Positions 312-22,252 of a DNA stretch of 22,252 nucleotides are shown piece by piece. The notes under the pieces were generated by a model. The model ran no database searches and was not told the origin of the DNA. It saw nothing but the letters and a program-made list of their open reading frames with translations. The position numbers were made by a program, and so were the translations under genes. Numbering within the stretch: the first letter of the stretch is position 1; each line of letters begins with the position of its first letter. The stretch is taken from IMG/VR virus record IMGVR_UViG_3300047453_000166, positions 1-22,252 of that record; one strand, 5' to 3'. Origin of the DNA: a virus.

Positions 312-339
312 ATTATACAGGTATTGGTGGTTATGTCAA
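312..339 (-). promoter_or_regulatory. Sigma70-type early promoter
   Basis: On the minus strand TTGACA (339-334) and TATAAT (317-312) are separated by 16 bp, and the -10 is embedded in CCTGTATAATGG. Both hexamers match the consensus exactly. Transcription would start near 305, about 25 nt before the 37-aa gene. The same CTTGACA...CCTGTATAATGG layout occurs at 3872-3899, 9521-9548 and 9670-9697. Confidence 0.85.
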
Positions 340-2457: not shown

Positions 2458-2725
2458 AAGCTATGTAATGATACCCACCAACATTCTCTGGTAATTTTCT
2501 AGATGTAAATACCAACTTTTCTGATAGATTTTTCATTTGAGATTGTAGTTTTTCTCTCTGTCTATCTGTAAGATTATCTTCTAAATCTTTACCCCAATAA
2601 CCAGTATAATAAGTTATACCAGGTGATGATTCATTACTATCTTTTAAAAAGTTTTTAAGAAACTTTGGTGTTTCTACTAACTGTTTTTTTAAGTGCTGGT
2701 CTATTTCTTTACTTTCTGTGTTCAT
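2447..2725 (-). CDS. Hypothetical 92-aa phage protein
   Basis: I place the start at ATG 2725, not at an ORF extension up to 2782, because AGGAG lies about 7 nt upstream of 2725 and the ATG forms an ATGA overlap with the upstream stop. The soluble, charged product contains a central YYTGYWGKDLEDN segment and ends YHYIAYVK. No family is recognised, and no signal peptide or membrane span is visible. It sits in a run of small coupled genes between the DUF3445 gene and the endolysin. Confidence 0.65.
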   Translation of the reverse strand: MNTESKEIDQHLKKQLVETPKFLKNFLKDSNESSPGITYYTGYWGKDLEDNLTDRQREKLQSQMKNLSEKLVFTSRKLPENVGGYHYIAYVK

Positions 2726-2988
2726 GCTATCTCCTTTACTTCTTGAACTACACATTTTGGTATTATTGTAGAATTGCCACATTCATCAATACTACCATCT
2801 TCCTTAAAATTGAAATCACTAACTAATCTAATGACTTCATCCTCATCACTAATTAAGAAACCTGTACTTAGACATCTAGGTAAGTTTTCTTCTTTTATAT
2901 CTTCCACACTTCGCCATGATGAATCAGATGTTATATCAATCCAATATACATGAACAAACTTGTAGGGAATCTTTTTTATTTTACTCAT
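2722..2988 (-). CDS. Small conserved phage protein, 88 aa
   Basis: Starts at ATG 2988, overlapping the upstream 40-aa gene by 8 nt (ATGAGTAA). A TTG three bases earlier is possible but unnecessary. The pattern VHVYWIDITSDSSWRS, then CLSTGFLISDEDEVIRL, then STIIPKCVV resembles a small family common in phages (a WxDI..S.W start, an S/TxGfLisd centre and an IPk.cI end) with no assigned function. It is probably a compact beta-rich cytoplasmic protein. Cysteines at the middle and end are not arranged as an obvious zinc site. Confidence 0.7.
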   Translation of the reverse strand: MSKIKKIPYKFVHVYWIDITSDSSWRSVEDIKEENLPRCLSTGFLISDEDEVIRLVSDFNFKEDGSIDECGNSTIIPKCVVQEVKEIA

Positions 2989-3103
2989 CAAATTCGCCTG
3001 ATAATTTTATTACTATGACTGCTAGTACAAATAATATTAATGTCATTGTAGGCAGCCAATCTCTTAAAAAGAGAAATAACCAGTCATCGTATATGTTATA
3101 CAT
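2981..3103 (-). CDS. 40-aa single-span membrane peptide
   Basis: An open frame from ATG 3103 with AGGAG 8 nt upstream. Its start overlaps the DUF3445 stop by 8 nt and its stop overlaps the next gene by 8 nt. The product begins MYNIYDDWLFLFLRDWL and has a hydrophobic span at about 18-33 followed by KLSGEFDE. The strong ribosome-binding site and double coupling argue that it is real. Function unknown; probably inserted in the inner membrane. Confidence 0.65.
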   Translation of the reverse strand: MYNIYDDWLFLFLRDWLPTMTLILFVLAVIVIKLSGEFDE

Positions 3104-3845
3104 TTAATAACTCCTTTACTTCAACTAAGTTTTTATATTTTAATACATCTTCAGACATACTATTAATACATCTTTTCAAAAGACCACCATTTCTTTCTAT
3201 TACAAAATTTAATGGATATCTTTCAACATCTATAAAGAAAGCAGCTGTATCTTCATCAACTGTTAATGTTCTTTCATGTTCAACTCTGAAAGTCAAATCA
3301 TCTAAGGATTTAATTTCAGGTCTTTCATACTTCGGATGATTACTTAATCTTTTTAATGATGATATTGCCCATGTGTGTCTATGAAAAGATTTACCACTTG
3401 TCATAGCACGCCAAATACCATCACTAGCTTTTCTTAAAGTTTCACCATCAGCAACAGGCTCATGAACTTCTGATAGTGTCATACCTTTTACATTTTTAGG
3501 ATTCCAACCACTTGCCATTGCAACAAAACACGCTTCAACTTTTCCCTTATGCATGATGACAACATCATCTGGTATTTCTAAACCCATTTCTATAATATCA
3601 TAAAAAGGTTCATCACTTAAATTCATTGCCTCTGAAGTTTTTATAACTAACTTCTTTTCTCTTGCAAGGTCTGATTCAAAAGACATATCACCCATTAAAC
3701 TGTTATACTCACAAAGTCTTTCTTCATATAAGTCTTGATGATAGTCTTTGAATCCTATAGTATTAATTGGTGTAAATCTAGGATTCATGTCAAAAGGAAT
3801 CTTGATTAATCCGTTAAAGTTTGCAAAGTTTACGCCATAGTCCAT
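3096..3845 (-). CDS. DUF3445 protein, heme-dependent oxidative N-demethylase-like
   Basis: A 249-aa protein matching the DUF3445 family (heme-dependent oxidative N-demethylase alpha-like, heme-binding PAS-type fold). Family landmarks in order are LYEERL (39-44), a glycine/tryptophan segment ASGWNP (111-116), EVHEPV (126-131), RHTWAI (156-161) and RVEHERTL (187-194). Cellular members take part in oxidative removal of methyl groups from secondary amines such as dimethylamine, with partner reductase/ferredoxin-like subunits. No partner is visible here, so the phage protein would need host partners or do something else. It is the first gene after a strong promoter (3872-3899), with GAGG upstream of ATG 3845, which suggests early expression. 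No signal peptide. The family call rests on motif order by eye. Confidence 0.75.
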   Translation of the reverse strand: MDYGVNFANFNGLIKIPFDMNPRFTPINTIGFKDYHQDLYEERLCEYNSLMGDMSFESDLAREKKLVIKTSEAMNLSDEPFYDIIEMGLEIPDDVVIMHKGKVEACFVAMASGWNPKNVKGMTLSEVHEPVADGETLRKASDGIWRAMTSGKSFHRHTWAISSLKRLSNHPKYERPEIKSLDDLTFRVEHERTLTVDEDTAAFFIDVERYPLNFVIERNGGLLKRCINSMSEDVLKYKNLVEVKELLNV

Positions 3846-3871
3846 AATATATACCTCGATTAATTGATTCC

Positions 3872-3899
3872 ATTATACAGGAATGAAATCATATGTCAA
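3872..3899 (-). promoter_or_regulatory. Sigma70-type promoter before DUF3445 gene
   Basis: TTGACA (3899-3894), 16-bp spacer, TATAAT (3877-3872), with CTTGACA and CCTGTATAATGG flanks as at 312-339. The predicted start near 3865 leaves a leader of about 20 nt containing the GAGG of the DUF3445 gene. The -35 lies just past the stop of nothing but intergenic DNA (gap 3846-3907). Confidence 0.85.
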
Positions 3900-3907
3900 G
3901 CACTTTT

Positions 3908-4417
3908 TTAAGATTTTTGCATATAATTTTCATCCCAACCAAAAGCGTCCTTCACCATATTGCCGTTTAAACCTTTAAACATACGGTGTAATACCTTATC
4001 TTTGACTGCGATTAAAATTTCTGCTTCATCTTTGTGAAGTCCTTCTAGAACTTGAATAAACAATGTTTCTTTTCTACCTTTTGTTAATGAAGGGTCAGCA
4101 TTCTTAATAAAGTGCCATAACTTTTTAGATTCATTTTCTAGAACTGTATGTTCAGTACCTTCTGGTGCCTCATTTGCTATAAATGGTGGTGTGCCTTCTG
4201 GTAAATCCCATTGTACATTTGGGTCAAATGCACCTTTGAGTATCATTCTTAATCCTGGTGTATTATTTTCTTTTAAGATTTCTACCTTTTTAGCTTTGAC
4301 CTTTGCATTGTGTACTTTTTTAAATACTTCACTCATTAAAGGTGCTTGAGAACCAGATGTTGTTGACATTTGTTCCATAGCTTTCTTAGATATTAAATGT
4401 GGGTTTTGTTCTACCAT
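3908..4417 (-). CDS. DUF6433-type conserved T4-like phage protein
   Basis: A 169-aa protein starting at ATG 4417 (GGAG 9 nt upstream); a TTG extension to 4438 is less likely. It contains a stretch that I recall from T4-like marine phages: LRMILKGAFDPNVQWDLPEG, then APEGTEHTVLENESKKLWHF, then KETLFIQVLEGLHKDEAEIL. This corresponds to the uncharacterised DUF6433 group. It is soluble, with a mostly helical second half and a C-terminal AFGWDENYM. It follows RNase H by 17 nt and closes the transcription unit that comes down from the glutaredoxin side. Function is unknown; the neighbourhood points to DNA metabolism. Confidence 0.75.
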   Translation of the reverse strand: MVEQNPHLISKKAMEQMSTTSGSQAPLMSEVFKKVHNAKVKAKKVEILKENNTPGLRMILKGAFDPNVQWDLPEGTPPFIANEAPEGTEHTVLENESKKLWHFIKNADPSLTKGRKETLFIQVLEGLHKDEAEILIAVKDKVLHRMFKGLNGNMVKDAFGWDENYMQKS

Positions 4418-4434
4418 AATTTTATTCTCCAATT

Positions 4435-5280
4435 TCAAAAATCATTTATATTTGTCATTAACGATTTCAATTTATGTTTCATGAAATACGGTAATAGTTT
4501 TGACCTATTAGGTACTTCATAACTTCTGTAACTATTTATAATGTTCTCCATTATAGATATCGGTATCTCCTCTAGGTCTATGAGTTTCTTATTTCTTTCA
4601 TAGTTTTTCTTAGTCTCACTACCAAGAGGTATATTATCTAGGTTAGCCCATTCTTCCAACCTTTTTTTATTAATAGGTCTTTGTTTTTCACCTGTAACAA
4701 AAACATCATCATCAGATAATATATTAGGTATGCCATCTGAACGGTCACCTTTTATTATTTGTTCGTGTAAAAATACTTTCGGGTCAATACCCTCACCTAC
4801 CATTTTCTTTTGAATAGGTGCAAATTGTTTGACATTTTCGTGTTTATGTAATTGTATAAAATCTTTATCACCAGAAACAATCATCACAGGTTCTTTTTTA
4901 TGATTTGCTTCTCTAACTAATACTGCAATTATATCATCTGCTTCGGCATTATCAATTGCTAATACCATATAAGGAAAGTTTTCTTTTATCTCTTCCTTAA
5001 TTTCCATAATCTTTGCGAATAAATCATCCCAATCTGTAGTGGATTCATCACGGCCTTGTCTTCTACTCCATTTATAATGTGGAAATAATTGTCTTCTCCA
5101 AGGATTAGATGAATCTGAGCATAGTACTTGTGTACCATAATCTTTTTTAAATTTTAGATTATAACCTCTAATACTATTAATAACCATGTGTCTAATCATA
5201 TCAAGATTAGCTTCTTCTTTACCTCTGGTTTGTGCCATAACATTAGATATTAATACCTGATTTAAGTCAACTAATATCAT
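4435..5280 (-). CDS. rnh: RNase H / 5'-3' exonuclease (T4 Rnh-like, FEN family)
   Basis: A 281-aa FEN/5'-nuclease family protein similar in length and layout to T4 RNase H (about 305 aa), which removes RNA primers from lagging-strand fragments. Acidic metal-binding residues are visible: Asp5 (ILVDLN), Glu113/Asp115/Asp116 (DNAEADDI), Asp138/Asp140 (SGDKDF) and Asp179/Asp182 (KGDRSDGIPN). The ATG at 5280 overlaps the upstream stop as ATGA and has GAGG upstream. It works in the same replication pathway as the gp61 primase at 14518-15519. No unusual residues seen. Confidence 0.9.
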   Translation of the reverse strand: MILVDLNQVLISNVMAQTRGKEEANLDMIRHMVINSIRGYNLKFKKDYGTQVLCSDSSNPWRRQLFPHYKWSRRQGRDESTTDWDDLFAKIMEIKEEIKENFPYMVLAIDNAEADDIIAVLVREANHKKEPVMIVSGDKDFIQLHKHENVKQFAPIQKKMVGEGIDPKVFLHEQIIKGDRSDGIPNILSDDDVFVTGEKQRPINKKRLEEWANLDNIPLGSETKKNYERNKKLIDLEEIPISIMENIINSYRSYEVPNRSKLLPYFMKHKLKSLMTNINDF

Positions 5281-6861: not shown

Positions 6862-7053
6862 TCAATGTAATGTTTTTTTCGCCTCATTTTCCATGCCTTT
6901 TTCAATCTCCTCAACTAAAATATTATACTCTGCTAAGAGATTGTCAACATAGTCTCGTAAATCGGTATTTACCTTACCAGAATCCTCTTGTAATTCTAAA
7001 GCTGCCTTGATTACCAGCAACTCATCCATGAATTTTAGATACTCATGAACCAT
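6862..7053 (-). CDS. Hypothetical 63-aa helical protein
   Basis: I place the start at ATG 7053 (GAGG 6 nt upstream), 11 nt inside the end of the DUF3310 gene; an upstream GTG at 7065 is weaker. The product is a Leu/Glu-rich, probably all-helical protein (MVHEYLKFMDELLVIKAALE...), perhaps a short coiled-coil dimer. No named family recognised. It is the last gene of the operon starting near 9514. Confidence 0.65.
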   Translation of the reverse strand: MVHEYLKFMDELLVIKAALELQEDSGKVNTDLRDYVDNLLAEYNILVEEIEKGMENEAKKTLH

Positions 7054-7309
7054 TAGAATCCTCACTAGACAATAATAATATACAATAATGAATTGCTTTA
7101 ATTATGTCTTTACGGTTTCTACCTTCTTTTTTACCATATCGGCACAAATACTTGATAGCATTTGCTTGGCAAAAATCTTTATCAAGGTCAAGATGTCGTA
7201 ACATATCTTGTACCTGAAATCCATTTTTATCAGCACTATAGTGTTGAGAATATGTACCCTCAATATATTGACCAATTTCTAATAAAATTTTATCTTCGTT
7301 ATACTTCAC
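7043..7309 (-). CDS. DUF3310 family protein
   Basis: An 88-aa protein with the DUF3310 pattern of phage proteins (sometimes loosely labelled nucleotide-kinase-like). The signature here is QHYSADKNGFQVQDMLRHLD (22-41), then FCQANAIKYLCRYGKKEGRN, then a DIIKAIHYC helix. The family's biochemical role is not firmly known. The start is GTG at 7309: GGAGG lies 6 nt upstream, while the ATG just before it belongs to the end of the upstream gene in another frame. It overlaps neighbours on both sides (11 nt each). Confidence 0.8.
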   Translation of the reverse strand: MKYNEDKILLEIGQYIEGTYSQHYSADKNGFQVQDMLRHLDLDKDFCQANAIKYLCRYGKKEGRNRKDIIKAIHYCILLLSSEDSNGS

Positions 7310-7691
7310 TCATTTCCTCCACTATGTTAGATAAATCATCTTTTGGTACATTAGGCACCTCAACTGATACATTTTCAATCATATCTTCCGTTGAACCACT
7401 AAATGCTTTAGGGTCTTTTTTCATCCATACTTCTCTGTATGTTAAACCATAATATTTTAAGAAAAAGTATTCTTTAGGATTGTCTGAAGAATATGTCTCA
7501 TATAATCCAGCAAAATTAAAAGGTTTACCATTTCTGTCTTCCATACTTTCGTACAACTCTGGCATATCTCTTTCTTCTTCCATGTGTTTTTTCATCATGG
7601 CAGCTCTATTGACAAAAGTTTCTGTTTTACCACTTAGGTCTTTTTCTTTTGCTGTAGCAAACTCTTTTCTTATTTCTTCTTTAGTGTACAT
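7299..7691 (-). CDS. Hypothetical 130-aa protein
   Basis: A soluble acidic protein. It starts MYTKEEIRKEFATAKEKDLS and has a Met-rich charged helix (MMKKHMEEERDM, about 32-43), an aromatic middle (ETYSSDNPKEYFFLKYYGLT) and an acidic tail. The start at ATG 7691 is preceded by AGGAG (about 9 nt). No family is recognised. It lies between the 2H phosphoesterase and the DUF3310 gene, in an operon of small early-type genes. Confidence 0.7.
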   Translation of the reverse strand: MYTKEEIRKEFATAKEKDLSGKTETFVNRAAMMKKHMEEERDMPELYESMEDRNGKPFNFAGLYETYSSDNPKEYFFLKYYGLTYREVWMKKDPKAFSGSTEDMIENVSVEVPNVPKDDLSNIVEEMSEV

Positions 7692-7712
7692 ATTTTCTCC
7701 TGTTGTTTAATG

Positions 7713-8135
7713 TTATTTTAAGTCTATCCACTCAATGGTACCTTCTACATATCCTATTCTTTCTTCCACTTGGGTTGGATTTGTAAACATGGTATTTGCT
7801 TCTTTAGCTTTTAATCCTTTCTTGTGTGAAATCGTTATGTGAGGTGCACCATCATCCCACCTTTTTAATACTTTTTCACTTTCTGTTAAACTGTAACTAT
7901 CGTAAAACATATCTGTTACCCAAAATGCTTCTATATTTTCATTTCTCCTTAACTCATCAATATATGCATTAACTCTTTTACCAACCAATTTAGTATATCT
8001 AGCAAATGCAACATCATCTGGTTTATATGCAAGTGTGATATGGTCTCCACGAACAACTTCCATTGTTGCATTTTTTTTGATAACATCTGCCCATGTTTTA
8101 TCTAATTTAACTGCAAAATATCCGTTATGATTCAT
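7713..8135 (-). CDS. 2H phosphoesterase, candidate anti-CBASS (Acb1-like) enzyme
   Basis: A 140-aa protein with the two HxT motifs of the 2H phosphoesterase superfamily: HITLAY (His32/Thr34) and HITIS (His99/Thr101), about 67 residues apart. 2H enzymes cleave cyclic or 2',5'-type phosphodiesters. The size and motif spacing are like phage T4 Acb1 (gp57B), which hydrolyses the cyclic nucleotides used by CBASS immunity; RNA 2',3'-cyclic phosphodiesterase activity is the alternative. The start is ATG 8135 with GGAGG 5 nt upstream, inside the end of the 42-aa gene; the longer frame to 8159 is not needed. No signal peptide, so cytoplasmic. The superfamily is fairly sure; the substrate is not. Confidence 0.75.
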   Translation of the reverse strand: MNHNGYFAVKLDKTWADVIKKNATMEVVRGDHITLAYKPDDVAFARYTKLVGKRVNAYIDELRRNENIEAFWVTDMFYDSYSLTESEKVLKRWDDGAPHITISHKKGLKAKEANTMFTNPTQVEERIGYVEGTIEWIDLK

Positions 8136-8253
8136 TTTTACCTCCAAATATTCTCTCATCTAAGTTTGATAAAATCATACAAATTTTATCGTGTATTTTT
8201 GTTAAATTCATAACAAATATAAATGTCAATAATAAAATTATAAAGTTTATCAT
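8125..8253 (-). CDS. 42-aa membrane peptide
   Basis: An open frame from ATG 8253, sharing ATGA with the stop of the signal-peptide protein and overlapping the 2H phosphoesterase by 11 nt. The N-terminus MINFIILLLTFIFVMNL is one hydrophobic span, followed by a cytoplasmic-type tail with one Cys. A GAGG lies 11 nt upstream, so translation is probably coupled. Together with the preceding secreted protein it could form an envelope pair; that is conjecture. Confidence 0.6.
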   Translation of the reverse strand: MINFIILLLTFIFVMNLTKIHDKICMILSNLDERIFGGKNES

Positions 8254-8567
8254 TTACAAGGGTACCTCGTATTCTCCATTAGTGAACATTTATATTCTTC
8301 ATCTGCTTTCATTCTCAACTCTGATTGAATGCCTTTTAATATGTGTGGTAAATGTTCTGACATTATACCAAGTATCTCAATCGTATGTCTATGAGCAATT
8401 CTTTTTAATTCATTTGCCATAATTTCTTCGTGTTTCATACCTCTGCCGGCAAGTGTCTCTCGTAGCACATGAGCACCAACAGCCTCTTCATAATCTCCAG
8501 AGTGTGCTGGATGTGAAAACAAAGAGAGAGAAAAAAACACCAGCACACCTAATAAAATCTTATTCAT
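8250..8567 (-). CDS. Secreted or periplasmic 105-aa protein
   Basis: Begins at ATG 8567 (GGAAG 6 nt upstream; ATG 8573 is the alternative). A clear Sec signal peptide is followed by a likely cleavage after HPAHS (about residue 23). The mature part is helical, His-rich in the middle (IAHRHTIEILGIMSEHLPHI), and ends with a Cys pair KCSLMENTRYPC that could form a disulfide. No lipobox and no named family. It is expressed in the operon behind the Fur-box-like island and coupled to a membrane peptide, so it probably acts at the envelope. Confidence 0.7.
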   Translation of the reverse strand: MNKILLGVLVFFSLSLFSHPAHSGDYEEAVGAHVLRETLAGRGMKHEEIMANELKRIAHRHTIEILGIMSEHLPHILKGIQSELRMKADEEYKCSLMENTRYPCK

Positions 8568-8907
8568 TTTCATCTTCCATTCTTTCTTTTAATAATTCTC
8601 TAAACTCTACCCAATTTTTAGGGTATATTGCAAAACTTTTTGCATATCTTTGTATACAATGATAAGGGCTTCTAATATATCTTTCCATATAATCACTTCC
8701 ACCTCTGTATCTAATTCTAAATTGACCTTTGAAATGTGTTTTGAAATCATGTAAATAATCTATAGGCAATCCTTTTGCAAGTGAGCCCTCATCTCTAGGC
8801 GACATGTGTTTTATGATTTCATCTATCAGGAATTTTTTAGAATAAATTCTTTCTGATGTAAGACCCATAAGTGATTTCATACCTAACGATTTATCTGCTT
8901 GATTCAT
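8560..8907 (-). CDS. Hypothetical 115-aa protein
   Basis: A soluble basic protein starting at ATG 8907 with GAGG upstream; it overlaps the 69-aa gene by 17 nt. The most distinctive part is FRIRYRGGSDYMERYIRSPY then AKSFAIYPK (about 63-98), an arginine/aromatic block of a type I recall in uncharacterised T4-like phage proteins. No catalytic motif can be named. Its last codons overlap the start region of the secreted protein. Confidence 0.7.
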   Translation of the reverse strand: MNQADKSLGMKSLMGLTSERIYSKKFLIDEIIKHMSPRDEGSLAKGLPIDYLHDFKTHFKGQFRIRYRGGSDYMERYIRSPYHCIQRYAKSFAIYPKNWVEFRELLKERMEDENE

Positions 8908-9100
8908 TTACTACCTCATCTCTAAAATCAATTTCATCGTGAATGCCTAAGAAATCTAATGCTGTTCTTTCATCGGATGTTAATTCATCCATATAAACAT
9001 TTTCTGTATCATCAAAAGTTATTTCACCTTCTGATACTCTTTTATATGTTTTAGCTAAAATTTCTTCTGCTAAATCCATAGCATAGTCATTCATACTCAT
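8891..9100 (-). CDS. Hypothetical 69-aa acidic protein
   Basis: Starts at ATG 9100 with GGAGG 7 nt upstream and a TAATG junction with the preceding stop. It is strongly acidic, with an N-terminal amphipathic helix (MNDYAMDLAEEILAKTYKRV) and a second helix around DERTALDFLGIHDE. Small acidic early proteins can mimic DNA or bind host proteins, but nothing specific identifies a target. No family recognised. Confidence 0.65.
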   Translation of the reverse strand: MSMNDYAMDLAEEILAKTYKRVSEGEITFDDTENVYMDELTSDERTALDFLGIHDEIDFRDEVVNESSR

Positions 9101-9510: not shown

Positions 9511-9663
9511 TTATGTGTCCATTATACAGGTCTGGAAAGCCTTGTCAAGCACTTTCTGCCTATATAAGTCATTGATTTTAAAGGGATTTGAAAAATAATT
9601 TAAATTATTTTTTTGAGAATGATTCTCATTTGGAATATATTGTTTATTTTTTGCACAATCCAT
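9511..9663 (-). CDS. Doubtful 50-aa leaderless ORF in regulatory island
   Basis: An open frame from ATG 9663 to TAA 9511, ending inside the -10 region of the downstream promoter. The ATG falls close to the predicted transcription start of the promoter at 9670-9697, so it would be translated without a leader or Shine-Dalgarno. The product is Asn/Gln/Lys-rich, as expected of random AT-rich sequence, and one Fur-box-like palindrome lies within it. Listed because of the start position, not because of any recognisable protein. Confidence 0.2.
   Translation of the reverse strand: MDCAKNKQYIPNENHSQKNNLNYFSNPFKINDLYRQKVLDKAFQTCIMDT
9521..9548 (-). promoter_or_regulatory. Sigma70-type promoter, proximal, small-gene operon
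   Basis: TTGACA (9548-9543), 16 bp, TATAAT (9526-9521), within GTGCTTGACA...CCTGTATAATGG. Bases after the -10 (GGACACAT) match those at the 312-339 promoter. Predicted start is near 9514, just before the 43-aa gene. Confidence 0.85.
9591..9612. repeat. 22-bp perfect AT palindrome
   Basis: AAAAATAATTT (9591-9601) is followed at once by its exact reverse complement (9602-9612). It lies upstream of the promoter at 9521-9548 and abuts the first Fur-box-like site by 1 bp. It could be a protein-binding or cruciform site; an UP-element-like role for AT-rich DNA is also possible. Confidence 0.55.
9614..9628. promoter_or_regulatory. Fur-box-like palindrome 1
   Basis: TGAGAATGATTCTCA is a 7-1-7 inverted repeat matching the Fur core TGATAATNATTATCA at all but one symmetric pair of positions. 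It lies between the two promoters, upstream of the -35 at 9548 and downstream of the start of the 9670-9697 promoter, where a bound repressor could act as a roadblock. Confidence 0.55.
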
Positions 9664-9669
9664 GCTTGG

Positions 9670-9697
9670 ATTATACAGGTGTAGGAAGTCATGTCAA
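9670..9697 (-). promoter_or_regulatory. Sigma70-type promoter, distal, between Fur-like sites
   Basis: TTGACA (9697-9692), 16 bp, TATAAT (9675-9670), with GCTTGACA and CACCTGTATAAT flanks. Start near 9663. Bracketed by the two identical 15-bp palindromes at 9614-9628 and 9721-9735, it would feed the same operon as the promoter at 9521-9548. Confidence 0.8.
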
Positions 9698-14518: not shown

Positions 14519-15519
14519 TACACTCTCTTCCAATAATTTATTTTTGTTATAGCACTCAGTTTTGAATAAGTATTTTCAGATATTATATCCTCTATTTTGG
14601 ATTTTGTCAACCCCCTGAGAATCATATCATTAATATCTTTTTCTTTTATGTCATCAGGCCAAATTACAATGTTATAATCTTTTTCAATTACATCATACAT
14701 TCTTTTAACTATCTCTTTATTTCGAGGTTCATTATCAAATATATATGTTATATTGTCAGGTGCAATTTTTCTTTTCATAAACAAATCTGCACCAGCAGCC
14801 GCCAAACAATTATCTAAAAATAAACTATCAATTGGACCTTCTACTATACGAATCTGTTTTGCAAAATTAATTCGTTCAAGGCCATAAATCTTCTGTTTAC
14901 TTTCATCTAATTTTAAGGTTATGTATTTTGGTTCTTCTTTACCAAAAGCACGACCTTGTAATGCAAACAATTTACCCTCAATATCATAGAATGGTATTAC
15001 TAATCTAGGATGTTCATACTTTACATTAAATGTATTGTTTTTTATTTTGTTTGCTAAATCATAAAATTTGTTGACAAGATAAAGTTTATCAAAATGTTCT
15101 TTTGGTATTTTTCTATCTTCAACATATTTTCTAGCAGGGTGTGATTCTTCTAAATCAGATATCTTCTTATAATTATCTAAGAGACCAATCTCTTTAAAAG
15201 CTGGTTTGAAGTCCATCTTTTCAAGATTTAATTCTTGTTTTACTGGTTTCTTATATTTTTCTAAAAGATAATCTGAATGTAGTCTGCCGTCAACATACTT
15301 TAAGAAGTTAACGAAATTAGCACCCTCTCCACAATTGTGGCATTTGAAGAACATATCATTCTTCACTCTATATATATAACCTCTAGCCTTAGTCTTGTCC
15401 TTTTTAGAATCACCACAATACGGACACCTGAAATTGAACAGGGTATTGGTTTTCTGTTTAAATTGACCTAACCTTGAGGATAGTAAATTTATATATTTTA
15501 AATTAATATAATCTGACAT
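14518..15519 (-). CDS. 61: DNA primase (T4 gp61-like)
   Basis: A 333-aa primase close to T4 gp61 (342 aa). The N-terminal zinc-binding domain has CPYCGDSKKDKTKARGY and CHNCGEGANF. The central region holds PRLVIPFYDIEGKLFALQGR, a match to the T4 protein. The TOPRIM-like part includes RIVEGPIDSLFLDN and IFDNEPRNKEI, and the end has DINDMI. It synthesises RNA primers with a gp41-type helicase, not seen here. I place the start at ATG 15519 because the promoter at 15532-15560 would start transcription at about 15525; an upstream frame to 15543 lies within that promoter. The mRNA would then be nearly leaderless with no Shine-Dalgarno. Confidence 0.93.
   Translation of the reverse strand: MSDYINLKYINLLSSRLGQFKQKTNTLFNFRCPYCGDSKKDKTKARGYIYRVKNDMFFKCHNCGEGANFVNFLKYVDGRLHSDYLLEKYKKPVKQELNLEKMDFKPAFKEIGLLDNYKKISDLEESHPARKYVEDRKIPKEHFDKLYLVNKFYDLANKIKNNTFNVKYEHPRLVIPFYDIEGKLFALQGRAFGKEEPKYITLKLDESKQKIYGLERINFAKQIRIVEGPIDSLFLDNCLAAAGADLFMKRKIAPDNITYIFDNEPRNKEIVKRMYDVIEKDYNIVIWPDDIKEKDINDMILRGLTKSKIEDIISENTYSKLSAITKINYWKRV
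14582..14610 (-). promoter_or_regulatory. Internal sigma70-type promoter for nrdAB
   Basis: TTGACA (14610-14605), 17 bp, TATAAT (14587-14582), both exact consensus, inside the 3' end of the primase gene and 64 nt before nrdA. Predicted start near 14575. The spacer lacks the CCTG before the -10 seen in the other set. It could raise ribonucleotide reductase expression independently of primase. Confidence 0.65.
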
Positions 15520-15531
15520 AACACGAGTATC

Positions 15532-15560
15532 ATTATATAGCAATCAGACTAGAATGTCAA
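15532..15560 (-). promoter_or_regulatory. Sigma70-type promoter before primase
   Basis: ACTTGACA (-35 15560-15555), 17 bp, TATAAT (15537-15532) followed by G. Predicted start near 15525, only about 6 nt from ATG 15519. It begins the primase-nrdA-nrdB-resolvase unit. Confidence 0.8.
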
Positions 15561-16460: not shown

Positions 16461-18305
16461 CTATTTCGGCGTATATATTGTTATTAGTTCCTCCTTTCCT
16501 TTAACTTTAATTTTATCTATTTCTACTGATTCTATATTCTTTAGTTTCTCCATTGTGTATGAAGAATATAGAGTAGAAAGTACATCACCATTTTCATCTT
16601 TATAATTTCTTGTAGCTGCCTCTAGTCTTGCGGCTAGATTAACAGCATCCCCAATTACTGAATAATCAAATCTTGTATCACTACCCATATTACCTACGAT
16701 ACATGTTCCTGTATTAACACCAGAACCTATATTGATATCGGGTAGTCCTCTTTCTTTGAAATCTTGTTTTAATCTTTTTGTTTCTTCTGCACATTCCTGA
16801 GCAGTCTTAACTGCCATCTCGGCGTGGTCTTCACAATCAAGTGGTGCATTCCAAAAAGCCATTATACAGTCTCCCATATATTTGTCAACCGTACCTCCAT
16901 TATTGAGTACAATTTTTGTCATGCGATTAAGATAGTCGTTGATAACTTCAACAAGTCCTTCAGGGTCATCATTGTTTTTGTAGTGTTCTGATATCGGAGT
17001 AAATCCTACTATGTCCATAAAAAGAAAACTCATTTCTCTCCTTTCACCACCTAATTTTAATTTACTAGGGTCTTTTTGTAATTCTGCAACTTGTCTTGGG
17101 TCTAGATATGTTTCAAATTGTTTTCGTATTTGTTGTTTTAGTCTAAACTCTAATATAAATCTATTGAATATACTGTGCATACCTACTATGGTAATTACAA
17201 TAATTATCCAACTAACATCTGATAATATTAAGTATTTATCAAATAAGAATTTTGAGCCAAAAATACTAGCACTATATAAAATTATTAAACTAAACCCTAT
17301 AAACCAGTAAGGTGTAAATCTGCATATTAGTATAACAGTAAGTCCTAATATAACAGATAAAACTAATTCTAAAAATGAACTAATATCATATCTGTTTATT
17401 TGTTTGCCATCTATCATAGTTTGTAGTGTAGAAGCAGATAACATGTAATCATATTTTTCACCAACAGGTGTTGCAATGATACTGTTTAATCCTTCTGCTG
17501 TTGTTCCTACAATTACAGTACGACCATTAAATTTTGAAAAGTCATCTTCTGAAGCTGATATTGTTTCAAATGTTTTATTCCATCTCAACCATATTCTAGC
17601 ATTAGGGTCTGTTTCTATAATTGGAAAACCTGGAACTCTTACTGCTTGAACACCACCATCTCCTGCCTTAACTTGATAACTAGGATTGCCTGTTGCAACT
17701 CTGATAACTTCTAAACCAATTGTTGGATATGTTGCCTCACCTATTCTCATTATCAATGGAATTCTTCTTACGACACCATCTATTTCTGGTGCTGTGTTTA
17801 TAACACCTACACCATCAGCACTACTTCCTAACTCAGGTATTGGTCCTAACATACCTTCCCATTCAAATAGATAAGGTAATGGGTTGCCTATTTTTGCAAC
17901 CCCTCTTGGCACGGCATTTTTATTTGTTTGTGATGTACCTGTTTGTGCAATGACTACACCATTATTAGTCAATACTCTTGCAAAAAATTCATCTGTACCA
18001 AATCTATCTTCTTCTGAAAATAATATAGGTAAAACAATTACACCAGCACCAGCTTGTCTTAGTTTAAGAACTATCTCTGCCATTTTATCTCTTGACCACG
18101 GCCATTGTCCATACTTTTCTATAGACTTTTCATCTATTGTAACTATACCAATGTCTTTTGATAAACTTTGTTCTTCTTGTTGTATTAACATATCGAAAGA
18201 TTTTAACTTTAATATTTCTTTGACAAATGGTTCTTGTAAACCATAGAATGTTAATGCAACTAAAGTTACAAATGCGAATGTCCAATGTGTTATAAATTTC
18301 TTCAT
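16461..18305 (-). CDS. CHASE2-domain adenylate/guanylate cyclase
   Basis: A 614-aa class III nucleotide cyclase from ATG 18305 (TAATG with the upstream stop). A membrane or signal segment at about 5-22 is followed by a CHASE2 sensor domain outside the membrane (about 35-300, including IGIVTIDEKSI and WPWSRDKMAEIV), three spans (about 310-382), a linker, and a catalytic domain (about 422-605). Catalytic positions are present: metal Asp431 (FMDIVGFT) and Asp479 (KYMGD), base-contact Lys475, Asn556 and Arg560 (GDAVNLAARLE). The residue seven before Asn556, which helps set base choice, is Ser549, not the usual Asp or Thr, so cAMP is likely but not certain. It would make a second messenger in response to a periplasmic cue, perhaps sensed with the FecR protein. 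Confidence 0.9.
   Translation of the reverse strand: MKKFITHWTFAFVTLVALTFYGLQEPFVKEILKLKSFDMLIQQEEQSLSKDIGIVTIDEKSIEKYGQWPWSRDKMAEIVLKLRQAGAGVIVLPILFSEEDRFGTDEFFARVLTNNGVVIAQTGTSQTNKNAVPRGVAKIGNPLPYLFEWEGMLGPIPELGSSADGVGVINTAPEIDGVVRRIPLIMRIGEATYPTIGLEVIRVATGNPSYQVKAGDGGVQAVRVPGFPIIETDPNARIWLRWNKTFETISASEDDFSKFNGRTVIVGTTAEGLNSIIATPVGEKYDYMLSASTLQTMIDGKQINRYDISSFLELVLSVILGLTVILICRFTPYWFIGFSLIILYSASIFGSKFLFDKYLILSDVSWIIIVITIVGMHSIFNRFILEFRLKQQIRKQFETYLDPRQVAELQKDPSKLKLGGERREMSFLFMDIVGFTPISEHYKNNDDPEGLVEVINDYLNRMTKIVLNNGGTVDKYMGDCIMAFWNAPLDCEDHAEMAVKTAQECAEETKRLKQDFKERGLPDINIGSGVNTGTCIVGNMGSDTRFDYSVIGDAVNLAARLEAATRNYKDENGDVLSTLYSSYTMEKLKNIESVEIDKIKVKGKEELITIYTPK
16861..16888 (-). promoter_or_regulatory. 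Promoter-like element inside cyclase gene
   Basis: TTGACA (16888-16883), 16 bp, TATAAT (16866-16861) then GG, the same geometry as the intergenic promoters and with CTGTATAATGG. It lies in the codons for VDKYMGDCIMA, so the conserved protein motif may create it by chance. If active it would transcribe the 62-aa gene and the coiled-coil protein. Confidence 0.4.
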
Positions 18306-19702
18306 TAGTTTTGTGTTACTGTTGCTGAACAACTTGCACTATTACAATTTTGTTCAAGGTAATAATTTTGGTCTGTTGAACTATCCTGTGTCAAAGTAAC
18401 ACTAGAACTATTACCACTTAAATTTATTGTTGCATTGTGATTACCACTTCCGTCTTGTGTTACATCTACACTATGACTATCAGTTAGTGTGATATCTAAA
18501 AAGTGATTACCTGTACCTTTTTGGTCTACGGCAACATTATTAGAACTATCTATGTCTAACCACAATTTTTTATCTCCTGTTTCTGTCTGGTCTACATCAA
18601 CATTATTATTACTACCAACTATCTTAACATTCATATAGTGTTCACCTACATAATTAATTGCTGATTGGTCTAAGTCTACATTATTTGTTGAACCCAATAT
18701 ATCTAATATTGCTCTCTGGTCTTGATTTTGTGTAACTGCAACATTGTTTGATGAACCTATTATATCTAGTCCTAAAATATTATCGTTACCTATTTGGTCT
18801 AAATCTAAAGCATTATTATCGCCAGTTATTACAGCTGTTGAAGTTAAATCTGAACCTATAATTAAATTATCATCACCATCTTGTAATATATTTAGTGTGT
18901 TATTATTTCCTGTTTGTGTAATGTATAACTGATTACCACTTATAGATTTATTTCTAGCTGCATTAAATTCTGTTGTTTGATTTGAAGTTATACCAGATTG
19001 TACTGTTGATGTGTATAATCCTTCTTCTATCATTATTGACATCAACAAAGCATCCATGTTAGCTGCGTATGTGTGAGTTGAAAGAAACTGTCCATAACCA
19101 AATGTTACATAAACTGAGCCACCATTTGAACCGTAATCCCATTTGTGCATAATAGGAATATTATTATTAGAAGATGAGTTAGCGGCTACAGTTGTACCGT
19201 TAGTTACATTATACATATATTTGTCTGAACCTGGTAAAGTATTTTCACTAGTAGTGCTACTTGCATAATCACCTTTTCTTACTGAATAATAACAAGCATT
19301 ACAACCACCAGCTTGTGTAAAACTACCCACACTCATCTTACTTTCAATTAATTGTTCTATGTTACTATTTCTGTTGGTTGCACCATTACTACCTACTATA
19401 AGCAATTCACCGCCACCAGATACATAATTGTCATAAACTGTCTTACAGTTACTACCACAGTTTGAAGAACCTGTGATATCAATGACTAAATCTTTGCCTG
19501 ATACATCAGTAGAACTAACTGTACCACTTGTACTACTAGATACAGTATAACCTAAATCTTCTAATTCAGATTTTAAATTTGTGTATTGAGAACTAGTATT
19601 ATAATCTCCACTATTTTTATAATATATAAAGGCAGTATCAGCCAATACAGAGGTACTAAAAAATAGCAGACTACTGACCAGACTGAATAATTGTAATCGC
19701 AT
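18305..19702 (-). CDS. Secreted protein with globular N-domain and curlin-like repeats
   Basis: A 465-aa protein. A signal peptide (about 1-21, cleavage after SVLA) is followed by a globular domain (about 22-240) with alternating strands and helices: YKNSGDYNTSSQYTNLKSEL, DLVIDITGS, then YVSGGGELLIVGSNG, which reads like a Rossmann/amidotransferase-type sandwich, plus several Cys. From about 255 the chain is a run of curlin-like units: N/D/Q-rich strands with ITQTGNNNTLNILQDGDDN, NNVAVTQ, NNVDLDQ, NNVDVDQ and NNVAVDQKGTGN, ending CSATVTQN. Curlin units form amyloid beta-solenoids when exported through CsgG. GGGGGAG precedes ATG 19702, and the gene overlaps fecR by 32 nt. It is much larger than CsgA/CsgB (about 150 aa). 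It may be the cap, adhesin or nucleator of a fibre. Confidence 0.75.
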   Translation of the reverse strand: MRLQLFSLVSSLLFFSTSVLADTAFIYYKNSGDYNTSSQYTNLKSELEDLGYTVSSSTSGTVSSTDVSGKDLVIDITGSSNCGSNCKTVYDNYVSGGGELLIVGSNGATNRNSNIEQLIESKMSVGSFTQAGGCNACYYSVRKGDYASSTTSENTLPGSDKYMYNVTNGTTVAANSSSNNNIPIMHKWDYGSNGGSVYVTFGYGQFLSTHTYAANMDALLMSIMIEEGLYTSTVQSGITSNQTTEFNAARNKSISGNQLYITQTGNNNTLNILQDGDDNLIIGSDLTSTAVITGDNNALDLDQIGNDNILGLDIIGSSNNVAVTQNQDQRAILDILGSTNNVDLDQSAINYVGEHYMNVKIVGSNNNVDVDQTETGDKKLWLDIDSSNNVAVDQKGTGNHFLDITLTDSHSVDVTQDGSGNHNATINLSGNSSSVTLTQDSSTDQNYYLEQNCNSASCSATVTQN

Positions 19703-20768
19703 TTTCTACTCCCCCTATTTCGTAATCTATTATTTCATAATCACCTTGTACAACATTTAAAACATAATTATATTCTTTATCTAATCTTAATTCAATATAA
19801 TTTCCAGAGGCGTCTTCTCTACTCCATAACCAATTTGGGTCTTCATCTAATAAAGTGATACCTGTTTCAGGGTCTTTACCTAATCTTATACCATCTCGAC
19901 CTTTGTCAAATTCATTTCTCATTGACTTTGCTAATTCAGCATTAATTTGGTCTAATATGTTTACTAAGAAATTTTGTTCTAAGAAATCTATGTCTAATCC
20001 TGTTGCCCAATTTTCAGTTTCTTCTTCTAGATAATCCACTTCCAAATCATCAAATTCTAAAAAATCAATATCTAGTGCATTGGCAACTTTTATAAAATCC
20101 TCTTTACTTTGTTGCTCTTCTATCTCTCTTGGTTTTGATATGATTAATAAGTTACCTATTAAGTTTTCATCTATATCTAGAATGACTGGTTTCATAGGAT
20201 TACTTGCAACTGTTTCTACAACTGTGGCTTGAAATGCCTGATTTAAAATTACTTGACCAGCATCCGATGTTACATCTATTTCTCCTACATAACAATTACC
20301 ATTTGTATCACATGAAGGTAATAATATAATTGTAGAACTTCCGACTTCATCTATTGTCATTGTAAAGTCTGTTCCACGAACACCGATTGTTGCTGTTGGT
20401 GTTTTTATCTTTACATTTTGTTTTGAGTTTTTTGCAATTTGACCTGAAGCATACCTAACAGTACCTAAGGATGCCTTTAATGATAAGGCACCTGTTTTTG
20501 AATTTGGGTCATAAACAAATTCATCTATTATTAGTTTAGAATGTTCTGTTACATCTACTCTAGTATCATCAATAAACTCAATGGCAGTTTTACCTTTTCC
20601 GGTTCTAACGGTGTCGTAAGAAAAAATATCTAAATCTTTTTCAGACTTAAACTCATCTCCTTCTTTTCTTTCAACGACACCATTACCTTCTTGTAAAATG
20701 ACATCTCCGATACTTGCACCAAAAGTGTTAGTGCTAAACAACAACATCATAATAAAAAACTTTTTCAT
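19671..20768 (-). CDS. Periplasmic FecR-domain protein with curlin-like C-terminus
   Basis: A 365-aa secreted protein. Signal peptide about 1-17, then a FecR domain (about 45-145) with YDTVRTGKGKTAIEFIDDTR and the hallmark TPTATIGVRGTDF (123-135). An acidic, Leu/Asp-rich region (about 205-285, LDIDFLEFDDLEVDYLEEET) and a C-terminal part follow. The chain ends in a curlin-like strand, GGVENAITIIQSGQ. FecR domains act in periplasmic signalling or wall binding; in bacteria they often sit beside CHASE2 cyclases. Here there is no sigma factor or TonB receptor, so iron-citrate signalling is not implied. It is 1 nt from the curlin-like gene and overlaps the next by 32 nt. Confidence 0.85.
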   Translation of the reverse strand: MKKFFIMMLLFSTNTFGASIGDVILQEGNGVVERKEGDEFKSEKDLDIFSYDTVRTGKGKTAIEFIDDTRVDVTEHSKLIIDEFVYDPNSKTGALSLKASLGTVRYASGQIAKNSKQNVKIKTPTATIGVRGTDFTMTIDEVGSSTIILLPSCDTNGNCYVGEIDVTSDAGQVILNQAFQATVVETVASNPMKPVILDIDENLIGNLLIISKPREIEEQQSKEDFIKVANALDIDFLEFDDLEVDYLEEETENWATGLDIDFLEQNFLVNILDQINAELAKSMRNEFDKGRDGIRLGKDPETGITLLDEDPNWLWSREDASGNYIELRLDKEYNYVLNVVQGDYEIIDYEIGGVENAITIIQSGQ

Positions 20769-20769
20769 T

Positions 20770-21453
20770 TTAATCTCGTTGTATTATATCTATATCGTGA
20801 TTATCTCCAGATGTTGTTAGTGTAATCATGTTATCATAGATACCACTTTGAGTTATATCTACATCTGCGATAGAACCTGTGTGTGTATGAATGTAAGTAT
20901 GTCCAACATTATCACCATTACCATCTATATCAACTAAGAAGTTATTTGTATCTCCATTAACTGATAATGTTAGTATTGCTGAGTTACCATCTATTGTACC
21001 TAAGATTGTGTTACTATCACTACCACTTGCACCAGTAATTCCAACTGTTGCTGAAGTAGCAGATGATGTTTCCCCAATGTCTATGTCAATATCGTTAGAT
21101 GAACCTACCCAAACAATAGAAGCTGTTGCTGTACCACAAGAACTATTATTTCCTGCACTATCACAATTAAAGTCTATATTGTTACTATCACCTGTTACAG
21201 AAAATGTGCCTGTATAGGTTGCACCATTGACATCAAAGGTCATAACATTACTATCACCTATTTGTGTAATTGCCAAATTTGTTGTTGCACCAATAACACT
21301 AGAGGCTGTAGTCGCATTACCTACTGTGTTATTCTGACCATCTTGTGTTACATCTAAATCTAATGTAGCACCAGATTGGTTTATATAAATGTCATTTGCA
21401 TGTACTGATAACGAAATAAAAATCACAGATAATATAGTGATTATTTTTTTCAT
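20770..21453 (-). CDS. Secreted curlin-like repeat protein
   Basis: A 227-aa protein from ATG 21453 (GGAG 9 nt upstream, ATGA with csgG; the frame to 21468 is less likely). The signal peptide MKKIITILSVIFISLSVHA is followed by a mature chain rich in N, D, S, T, G with repeated strands: INQSGATLDLDVTQDGQNN, ITQIGDSNVM, VTGDSNNIDF, VGSSNDIDIDIGE, ITQSGIYDNM and SGDNHDIDIIQ. These follow the curlin unit (Q-x-G-x2-N with alternating hydrophobics) only loosely. Three Cys occur in one cluster (FNCDSAGNNSSC...). It is the natural substrate candidate for the adjacent CsgG pore. It could be a fibre subunit or a soluble amyloid. Confidence 0.8.
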   Translation of the reverse strand: MKKIITILSVIFISLSVHANDIYINQSGATLDLDVTQDGQNNTVGNATTASSVIGATTNLAITQIGDSNVMTFDVNGATYTGTFSVTGDSNNIDFNCDSAGNNSSCGTATASIVWVGSSNDIDIDIGETSSATSATVGITGASGSDSNTILGTIDGNSAILTLSVNGDTNNFLVDIDGNGDNVGHTYIHTHTGSIADVDITQSGIYDNMITLTTSGDNHDIDIIQRD

Positions 21454-22252
21454 TCTTTTACTCTCCATTTTTTAAACTTCCAATAGTCTAACTGTTCGCC
21501 CTTTTCAACCATTTTTAAAACGCCATATTCTATGGCAGAACGAATAGCATAATCTGTTGGTTCATTAATAGCTGCACCTGTTTCTATCTCTAATGCTTTA
21601 GTCCTTAAATCAAAGAATCTAAATACATCAGCACCAGTTTGATAACTTGCAATAGTTTTACTTGCTGATATTGTCATCAATACTTCTCCTGTCTGTACTG
21701 CTATTACTCTTAAAGCAACAGTTACTTGGTCTGTTCGATATTGTTTGGAAGCTCCAATACCGAATACTCTTGCACCTTCGCCACCACTTACGGTATTTGA
21801 ATCGTAACTGACAACGCCCCCCTCTATAATAAGACCTGCAAATATTAGTGGTTTTAATACTGTACCTGCATTTTTTTCACCATCATATAATTCTCTTGTA
21901 GACCTAACCAATTGTCTTTCTTTGACTAGGTTGCCTAATCCTTTTCTTTCTACTACTGTAAACCAATCACCATCACTTACCAGTTTAAGTGCTTGTATTA
22001 AGTATACTTCAGGTCCTTGTGTAACTGCCGTACTTAATTGAGAAAACTTATCACTAGGTTTTCTTTGTCCTGTTCTATCAGGAAAATCATAAATCGCAAT
22101 CGTAATCTTATCTTGGTCTAAATCAGGTACACCTTTTAATAAATCCGATGTAGCAGGATTTTGTATAAATGGCTTCTGAGACATCTCAACATAATTGCCC
22201 ATTGTTGTCGAACAACCTGACAGGCACATGCCCATTAAAAATATTAATACAT
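21450..22252 (-). CDS. csgG: CsgG-type curli secretion channel lipoprotein, 5' end beyond window
   Basis: The gene is open to the right edge. The frame continues upstream of ATG 22235 as VLIFLMGMCLSGCST, so the lipoprotein signal peptide starts outside the window and the lipobox is LSGC. The mature sequence follows CsgG closely: ITIAIYDFPDRTGQRKPS, STAVTQG, WFTVVERKGLGNLVKERQLV, IIEGGVVSYDSNTVSGGEGA, RVFGIGASKQYRTDQVTVAL and SKTIASYQ...GVFRF-like DVFRFFDL. CsgG assembles an outer-membrane nonamer that lets unfolded curlin subunits out. CsgE and CsgF are not in the window. The loop between TGQ and STAV, which lines the constriction in E. coli, differs (RKPSDKFSQL). The gene overlaps the curlin-like gene by 4 nt. 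Confidence 0.93.
   Translation of the reverse strand, partial: VLIFLMGMCLSGCSTTMGNYVEMSQKPFIQNPATSDLLKGVPDLDQDKITIAIYDFPDRTGQRKPSDKFSQLSTAVTQGPEVYLIQALKLVSDGDWFTVVERKGLGNLVKERQLVRSTRELYDGEKNAGTVLKPLIFAGLIIEGGVVSYDSNTVSGGEGARVFGIGASKQYRTDQVTVALRVIAVQTGEVLMTISASKTIASYQTGADVFRFFDLRTKALEIETGAAINEPTDYAIRSAIEYGVLKMVEKGEQLDYWKFKKWRVKE

Follow-up and report, generated by a model that had tools for sequence, protein, structure and literature searches.

What does a phage of marine bacteria do with a protein from the family of the heme subunit of HODM, the heme-dependent oxidative N-demethylase with which bacteria remove methyl groups from dimethylamine? This question is raised by a single gene in a 22,252-nucleotide stretch of viral DNA (IMG/VR record IMGVR_UViG_3300047453_000166; the whole stretch is referred to here as the window). 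An initial annotation, made by reading the sequence, described it as a phage-encoded DUF3445 (PF11927) gene and suggested that it could be an auxiliary metabolic gene that frees formaldehyde and amine nitrogen from methylated amines. We reproduced its open reading frame exactly, including the coordinates, the ATG start, and the length of 249 aa. The gene and the elements in and directly before it are as follows.

3096–3845, minus strand: PF11927 (HODM alpha-subunit-like) gene; open reading frame with ATG start, 249 aa; assigned by Pfam and by comparison of a model with HODM 5LTE.
3213–3569, minus strand: PAS-like core, approximately residues 93–211, corresponding to the heme-b PAS domain of HODM (5LTE residues 155–290; PMC8694187); placed by model strands and helices and by alignment.
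3462–3464, minus strand: codon of H128 (H194 of 5LTE), candidate heme ligand, placed by alignment.
3854–3857, minus strand: GAGG, ribosome-binding-site-like by sequence reading, 8 bases 5' of the ATG.

The family assignment is borne out by a profile search. PF11927 (HODM_asu-like) is the single Pfam family matched by the window protein, at 65.5 bits (E 6.4e-18) against a curated cut-off of 25 bits; the alignment places residues 87–245 on positions 97–270 of the 273-position profile, and a six-frame search of the window yields the match at 64.7 bits. Among the motifs that had been taken as landmarks, EVHEPV, RHTWAI, and RVEHERTL are real family motifs. LYEERL is no family landmark; it is loosely conserved, and within phages only.

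An AlphaFold2 model of the window protein, computed with the phage alignment as input, reached a pLDDT of 82.9. Compared by VIA-align, it matches the HODM heme subunit in 5LTE and 5LTH with Z 21.6 and 21.4, respectively, along the whole chain (240–244 residues, 14% identity); the superposition covers 240 residues with an rmsd of 2.8, and Foldseek gives E 8e-10 against 5LTH, the complex with dimethylamine. As modelled, the phage protein matches the fold of the HODM alpha subunit (Pseudomonas mendocina; 5LTE, 5LTH, 5LTI) over its full length. Searches of PDB sequences with the window protein or the phage alignment did not find HODM, so the link to it is made via the fold and via cellular sequences. 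The sequence of 5LTE was recovered via an Acinetobacter homologue. Profile-profile alignment and MAFFT agree on its register with the phage protein, and xHxPV, RxxW, RxE, and YK occur in the same order in both. The full-length fold, the Pfam family, and this motif order are also shared with the DUF3445 protein encoded at dimethylamine monooxygenase loci of bacteria. It differs from the HODM alpha subunit in its size, having 249 aa whereas the latter has about 340 aa.

Most heme-PAS domains are heme-based sensors or binders without catalysis; to our knowledge, HODM is the only characterised enzyme on the heme-PAS fold. The phage protein could be a non-catalytic heme protein, sensing O2, NO, CO, or heme and controlling a partner from the host or the phage. 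The PAS fold itself and weaker matches to sensor PAS domains (EcDOS, for example, at Z 6.6) speak for such a role, as does the lack of a phage-encoded electron donor in the phage records searched. However, the full-length match is to an enzyme, and the next structural matches after 5LTE and 5LTH, which are sensor PAS domains, reach at best Z 7.7 as against 21.6; moreover, the protein has no attached output domain and keeps the invariant residues of HODM-type proteins. We regard a sensor as unlikely.

Which residues are kept was determined by comparison with 18 cellular members of the family, 4 of the dimethylamine type and 14 orphans from Alphaproteobacteria, Gammaproteobacteria, and Actinomycetota. 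To retrieve real cellular PF11927 members from plasmids, a motif string served as bait, and none of the conclusions depends on it. Fourteen columns are invariant in the cellular set, and 12 of them are retained by 90% or more of the phage sequences: D94, W114, G121, H128, P130, R156, W159, R187, E189, F203, I205, and Y237. All except Y237 lie within the region matching 5LTE 155–290. H128, P130, R156, W159, R187, and E189 are conserved in the 18 cellular relatives and the phages alike; the cell-invariant V131 is V or I in phages. Loss of heme-contact residues would have counted against the initial annotation; judged by family-wide conservation, as measured by these columns, the annotation is not refuted on this ground. 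H128 is the sole histidine that is invariant across phage and cellular relatives and hence the natural candidate for a heme ligand. One change stands out against this conservation. The Asn of the RxNW motif (N226 of 5LTE) occurs in 18 of 18 cellular sequences but in no phage; there its place is taken by Thr (T158 in the window protein) or Val, and the motif reads RxTW or RxVW.

The same residues bear on whether a cofactor is bound at all. Recruitment of folds for binding is frequent in phages, and the fold could have been retained to bind a host protein or a small ligand without heme. Beyond this general habit nothing direct speaks for a cofactor-free derivative, and loss of the cofactor should have erased the family-wide histidine and the charged strand residues, which are invariant in the phages; we consider it improbable.

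The phage PF11927 gene is real, widespread, and under selection. It was found in IMG/VR at 55 loci by a single-sequence search and at least at 125 loci by an alignment search. The phage proteins are about 250 aa long and share 58 invariant columns (34 distinct sequences), and the pairwise dN/dS of their genes is 0.16–0.44, which indicates that the gene is kept by purifying selection. Elsewhere it is hard to find. The window protein had no match in PHROGs or NCBIfam; tblastn against 50,697 GenBank phage records gave none, either with this protein or with a query from the other phage group; and the BFVD viral structure library contained no match to the phage model below E 0.001. The family is therefore unrepresented among the named phages searched. 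BFVD revealed no further viral protein resembling HODM, although one may still exist. The phage alignment retrieved no relative from genome contigs, the phage protein matched nothing in plasmids, and the open literature yielded no report of a DUF3445 or HODM protein in a phage. Neither the fold nor the Pfam family is new; what is new, to judge from the collections searched, is a viral branch that is compact and partnerless.

The place of the gene in the phage genome is nearly constant. The following neighbours, and the promoter discussed below, surround it in the window.

4435–5280, minus strand: T4-type RNase H / 5'-3' exonuclease, conserved upstream; from domain matches and the locus survey.
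3908–4438, minus strand: DUF6433 protein, conserved upstream neighbour (PF20025, 137.5 bits), counted 90 times close to the PF11927 gene in a survey of 94 loci.
3872–3899, minus strand: sigma-70-type promoter TTGACA-16-TATAAT, 12 of 12 positions matching, 26 bases 5' of the PF11927 ATG.
2981–3103, minus strand: 40-aa open reading frame with one hydrophobic stretch, overlapping the PF11927 stop codon and not conserved among relatives.
2722–2991, minus strand: 89-aa protein (PHROG 25889); among cultured phages, only Pelagibacter phages have homologues.

In nearly all of the 94 loci the PF11927 gene lies downstream of the T4-type RNase H and the DUF6433 protein, a T4-like phage synteny that supports the claim of phage origin. 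T4-type pelagimyophages (HTVC008M, Mosig) and the OM43 phage Melnitz have a similar replication gene order and the closest NrdA, primase, and RNase H; no PF11927 gene is annotated in the stretches of these three genomes that were read. At the corresponding place, HTVC008M and Melnitz have the RNase H without an annotated PF11927 gene. It follows that PF11927 is an optional gene with a fixed place in this T4-like phage group. This synteny, its absence from sister phages, and purifying selection bear on whether it is an auxiliary metabolic gene, a role that would also take a metabolic function in the host. In one related locus, L105 of the second phage group, a 415-aa protein is encoded at 6890–8137 just before the RNase H gene (region 6890–8974), and the RNase H is split into two open reading frames (163 and 79 aa) by an insertion, a frameshift, or a sequencing error.

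The promoter ascribed to the gene is real as a sequence. The window contains 7 perfect sigma-70 sites, and 0.07 were expected from shuffles, a 100-fold excess. Of 92 loci, 30 have a perfect site ahead of the PF11927 gene, and these 30 all belong to the window's own branch; in the other phage branch the gene follows its neighbour without such a site. Because the site is perfect and recurs, the PF11927 gene probably opens its own transcript in the window's branch; the promoter is presumably of the early class, as had been proposed. Simple ORF calling gave longer upstream starts in some relatives, but these fall inside the promoter and the shorter start is likelier. The seven perfect promoters of the window (312–339, 3872–3899, 9521–9548, 9670–9697, 14582–14610, 15532–15560, and 16861–16888) are all on the coding (minus) strand. 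Five of them have TG directly 5' of the -10 hexamer, in four cases as CCTGTATAAT.

If the phage protein worked as HODM-type enzymes do, partner subunits might be expected nearby. In the dimethylamine loci of Rhizobium, Acinetobacter, and Phyllobacterium, a GcvT protein, DmmA, and a VanB-type reductase adjoin the PF11927 gene, whereas the phage gene has none of these alongside. A survey of relatives, which had been proposed as a check, found no partner in the phage records. GCV_T, NAD_binding_1, and Fer2 domains were absent from 16 phage records, which are fragments (one of 123 kb), and the same searches gave matches in 10–12 of 14 control genomes. DmmA had no match in 11 phage records, in a search run without a positive control. 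Two neighbouring genes were also considered: the one that overlaps the stop is not the same from relative to relative, and the 89-aa neighbour is no obligate partner, since it is present in Pelagibacter phages without a PF11927 gene. ORF calling placed the gene for the 89-aa protein in 49 of 57 well-covered loci and missed the window copy and maybe others. With no phage-encoded partner found, the phage protein appears to act by itself or together with proteins of the host; since the records are fragments, a partner gene may lie farther away.

The family tree separates the phage proteins from the dimethylamine enzymes. The phage PF11927 sequences all group in a single, fully supported clade whose stem measures 3.9 changes per site, and the four dimethylamine-type sequences form a separate clade among the cellular ones, on a stem of 3.0. 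The phage clade does not group with the dimethylamine enzymes, no cellular donor is visible in the tree, and the point at which the phage clade joins is unsure owing to the long branches. Orphan cellular PF11927 proteins (Indioceanicola, Nitrospirillum, Skermanella, Acidimicrobiia-type MAGs, and Gammaproteobacteria MAGs) belong to the same family and are likewise far from the dimethylamine enzymes, but they have about 290–340 aa and keep the Asn, and none is close to the phage clade. Judged by these sequences, the phage protein is no close copy of a dimethylamine demethylase, and a stem of 3.9 leaves room for functional change.

Accepting an enzyme with its fold and redox pocket kept, the substrate could be a different one, such as a modified nucleotide, a methylated amino acid, or a host metabolite. 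A heme-PAS oxygenase or oxidase of this kind would fit the long stem, which sets the phages apart from the dimethylamine enzymes as well as from the orphan cellular proteins, and also the loss of the invariant Asn, the stand-alone gene, and the strict synteny with RNase H and DUF6433. No positive evidence favours any such substrate, however, and the neighbouring genes point to none; we consider this reading somewhat doubtful.

The host bears on the substrate as well. The window NrdA and primase are nearest to those of Pelagibacter phage Mosig (80.8% and 63.6% identity, respectively), and the nearest RNase H is that of the OM43 phage Melnitz. Homologues of the 89-aa neighbour occur in 54 phage records, namely 50 Pelagibacter phages and 4 uncultured ones. 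From these phage relatives SAR11 would be the likeliest host group, with OM43 as the alternative, in keeping with the hosts named in the initial annotation. The 89-aa protein is also found in Pelagibacter podophages and could mark SAR11 phages. A family search for PF11927 covered 197 genomes of the SAR11 order, which was picked by a SAR11 16S probe sequence that matched two genomes, and found it in none; as a positive control, all six cellular genomes known to carry PF11927 matched. SAR11 has Tmm, Tdm, and GmaS and is reported to be without DmmDABC, that is, the dimethylamine step (PMC5520151). With PF11927 found in none of these genomes and the step reportedly missing, the phage could fill a gap in its host, but a host electron donor would be needed.

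The reading that we favour, tentatively and at less than an even chance, is a heme-PAS oxidase that stands alone and acts on small methylated amines. It falls short of even odds because the Asn is lost, the stem is long, and partners are missing. We infer a compact soluble heme-PAS protein, a full-length homologue of the HODM heme subunit. Its PAS pocket would hold heme b, for which H128 is the candidate ligand, and would be lined by R156, R187, and E189. Electrons would be supplied by a host reductase or ferredoxin, or peroxide would be used instead. A small methylated amine would then be oxidised inside the infected SAR11-type cell to give a demethylated amine and formaldehyde. Dimethylamine is a plausible substrate; SAR11 should make it from TMA/TMAO and is not known to degrade it. 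The narrower proposal, that SAR11 phages carry a one-protein dimethylamine or methylamine demethylase that works with host reductases and fills the missing step, so that infection would yield formaldehyde and monomethylamine for C1 metabolism and nitrogen, appears unlikely. The initial annotation is supported in part. Its family, phage origin, own promoter, and likely SAR11/OM43-type host are borne out; the suggested release of formaldehyde and amine nitrogen may or may not occur. In its favour, the pocket-type residues are kept and SAR11 is reportedly without the dimethylamine step; against it, no partners were found in the phage records searched, the downstream gene is not conserved, and the tree distance is large.

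SAR11 are among the most abundant marine bacteria. If methylated amines are the substrate, the phage would supply a step that these hosts reportedly lack, and infection would be tied to marine methylamine turnover. Even if methylamines are the wrong substrate, a heme-PAS-type protein kept by so many phages calls for an explanation. The compact viral branch is a new place to study how the HODM fold works without its reductase complex.

Other parts of the window contain genes of separate interest, all on the minus strand. A glucosaminidase-type endolysin (1668–2255; PF01832, 73 bits) is followed by a 342-aa protein with hydrophobic stretches (635–1663), and the two (635–2255) are a possible lysis module. 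The product of 7713–8159 has weak, below cut-off similarity to the anti-CBASS protein Acb1 (E 0.011) and to 2'-5' RNA ligase (E 0.11). A curli-type cassette at 16461–22250 encodes CsgG (PF03783, 167 bits), two curlin-like proteins, a FecR protein, and a CHASE2-adenylate cyclase. The curlin-like protein at 18305–19702 matches PF07012 and has six QxGxxN repeats as against 0.2 in shuffles; the second lies at 20770–21468. Published pelagimyophage curli operons are said to be without CsgA and CsgB (PMC7029224), and curlin-repeat proteins adjoining CsgG may fill this gap. Most cassette proteins are 75–91% identical in the related loci L083 and L105, and the PF11927 protein is less so, at about 52%.
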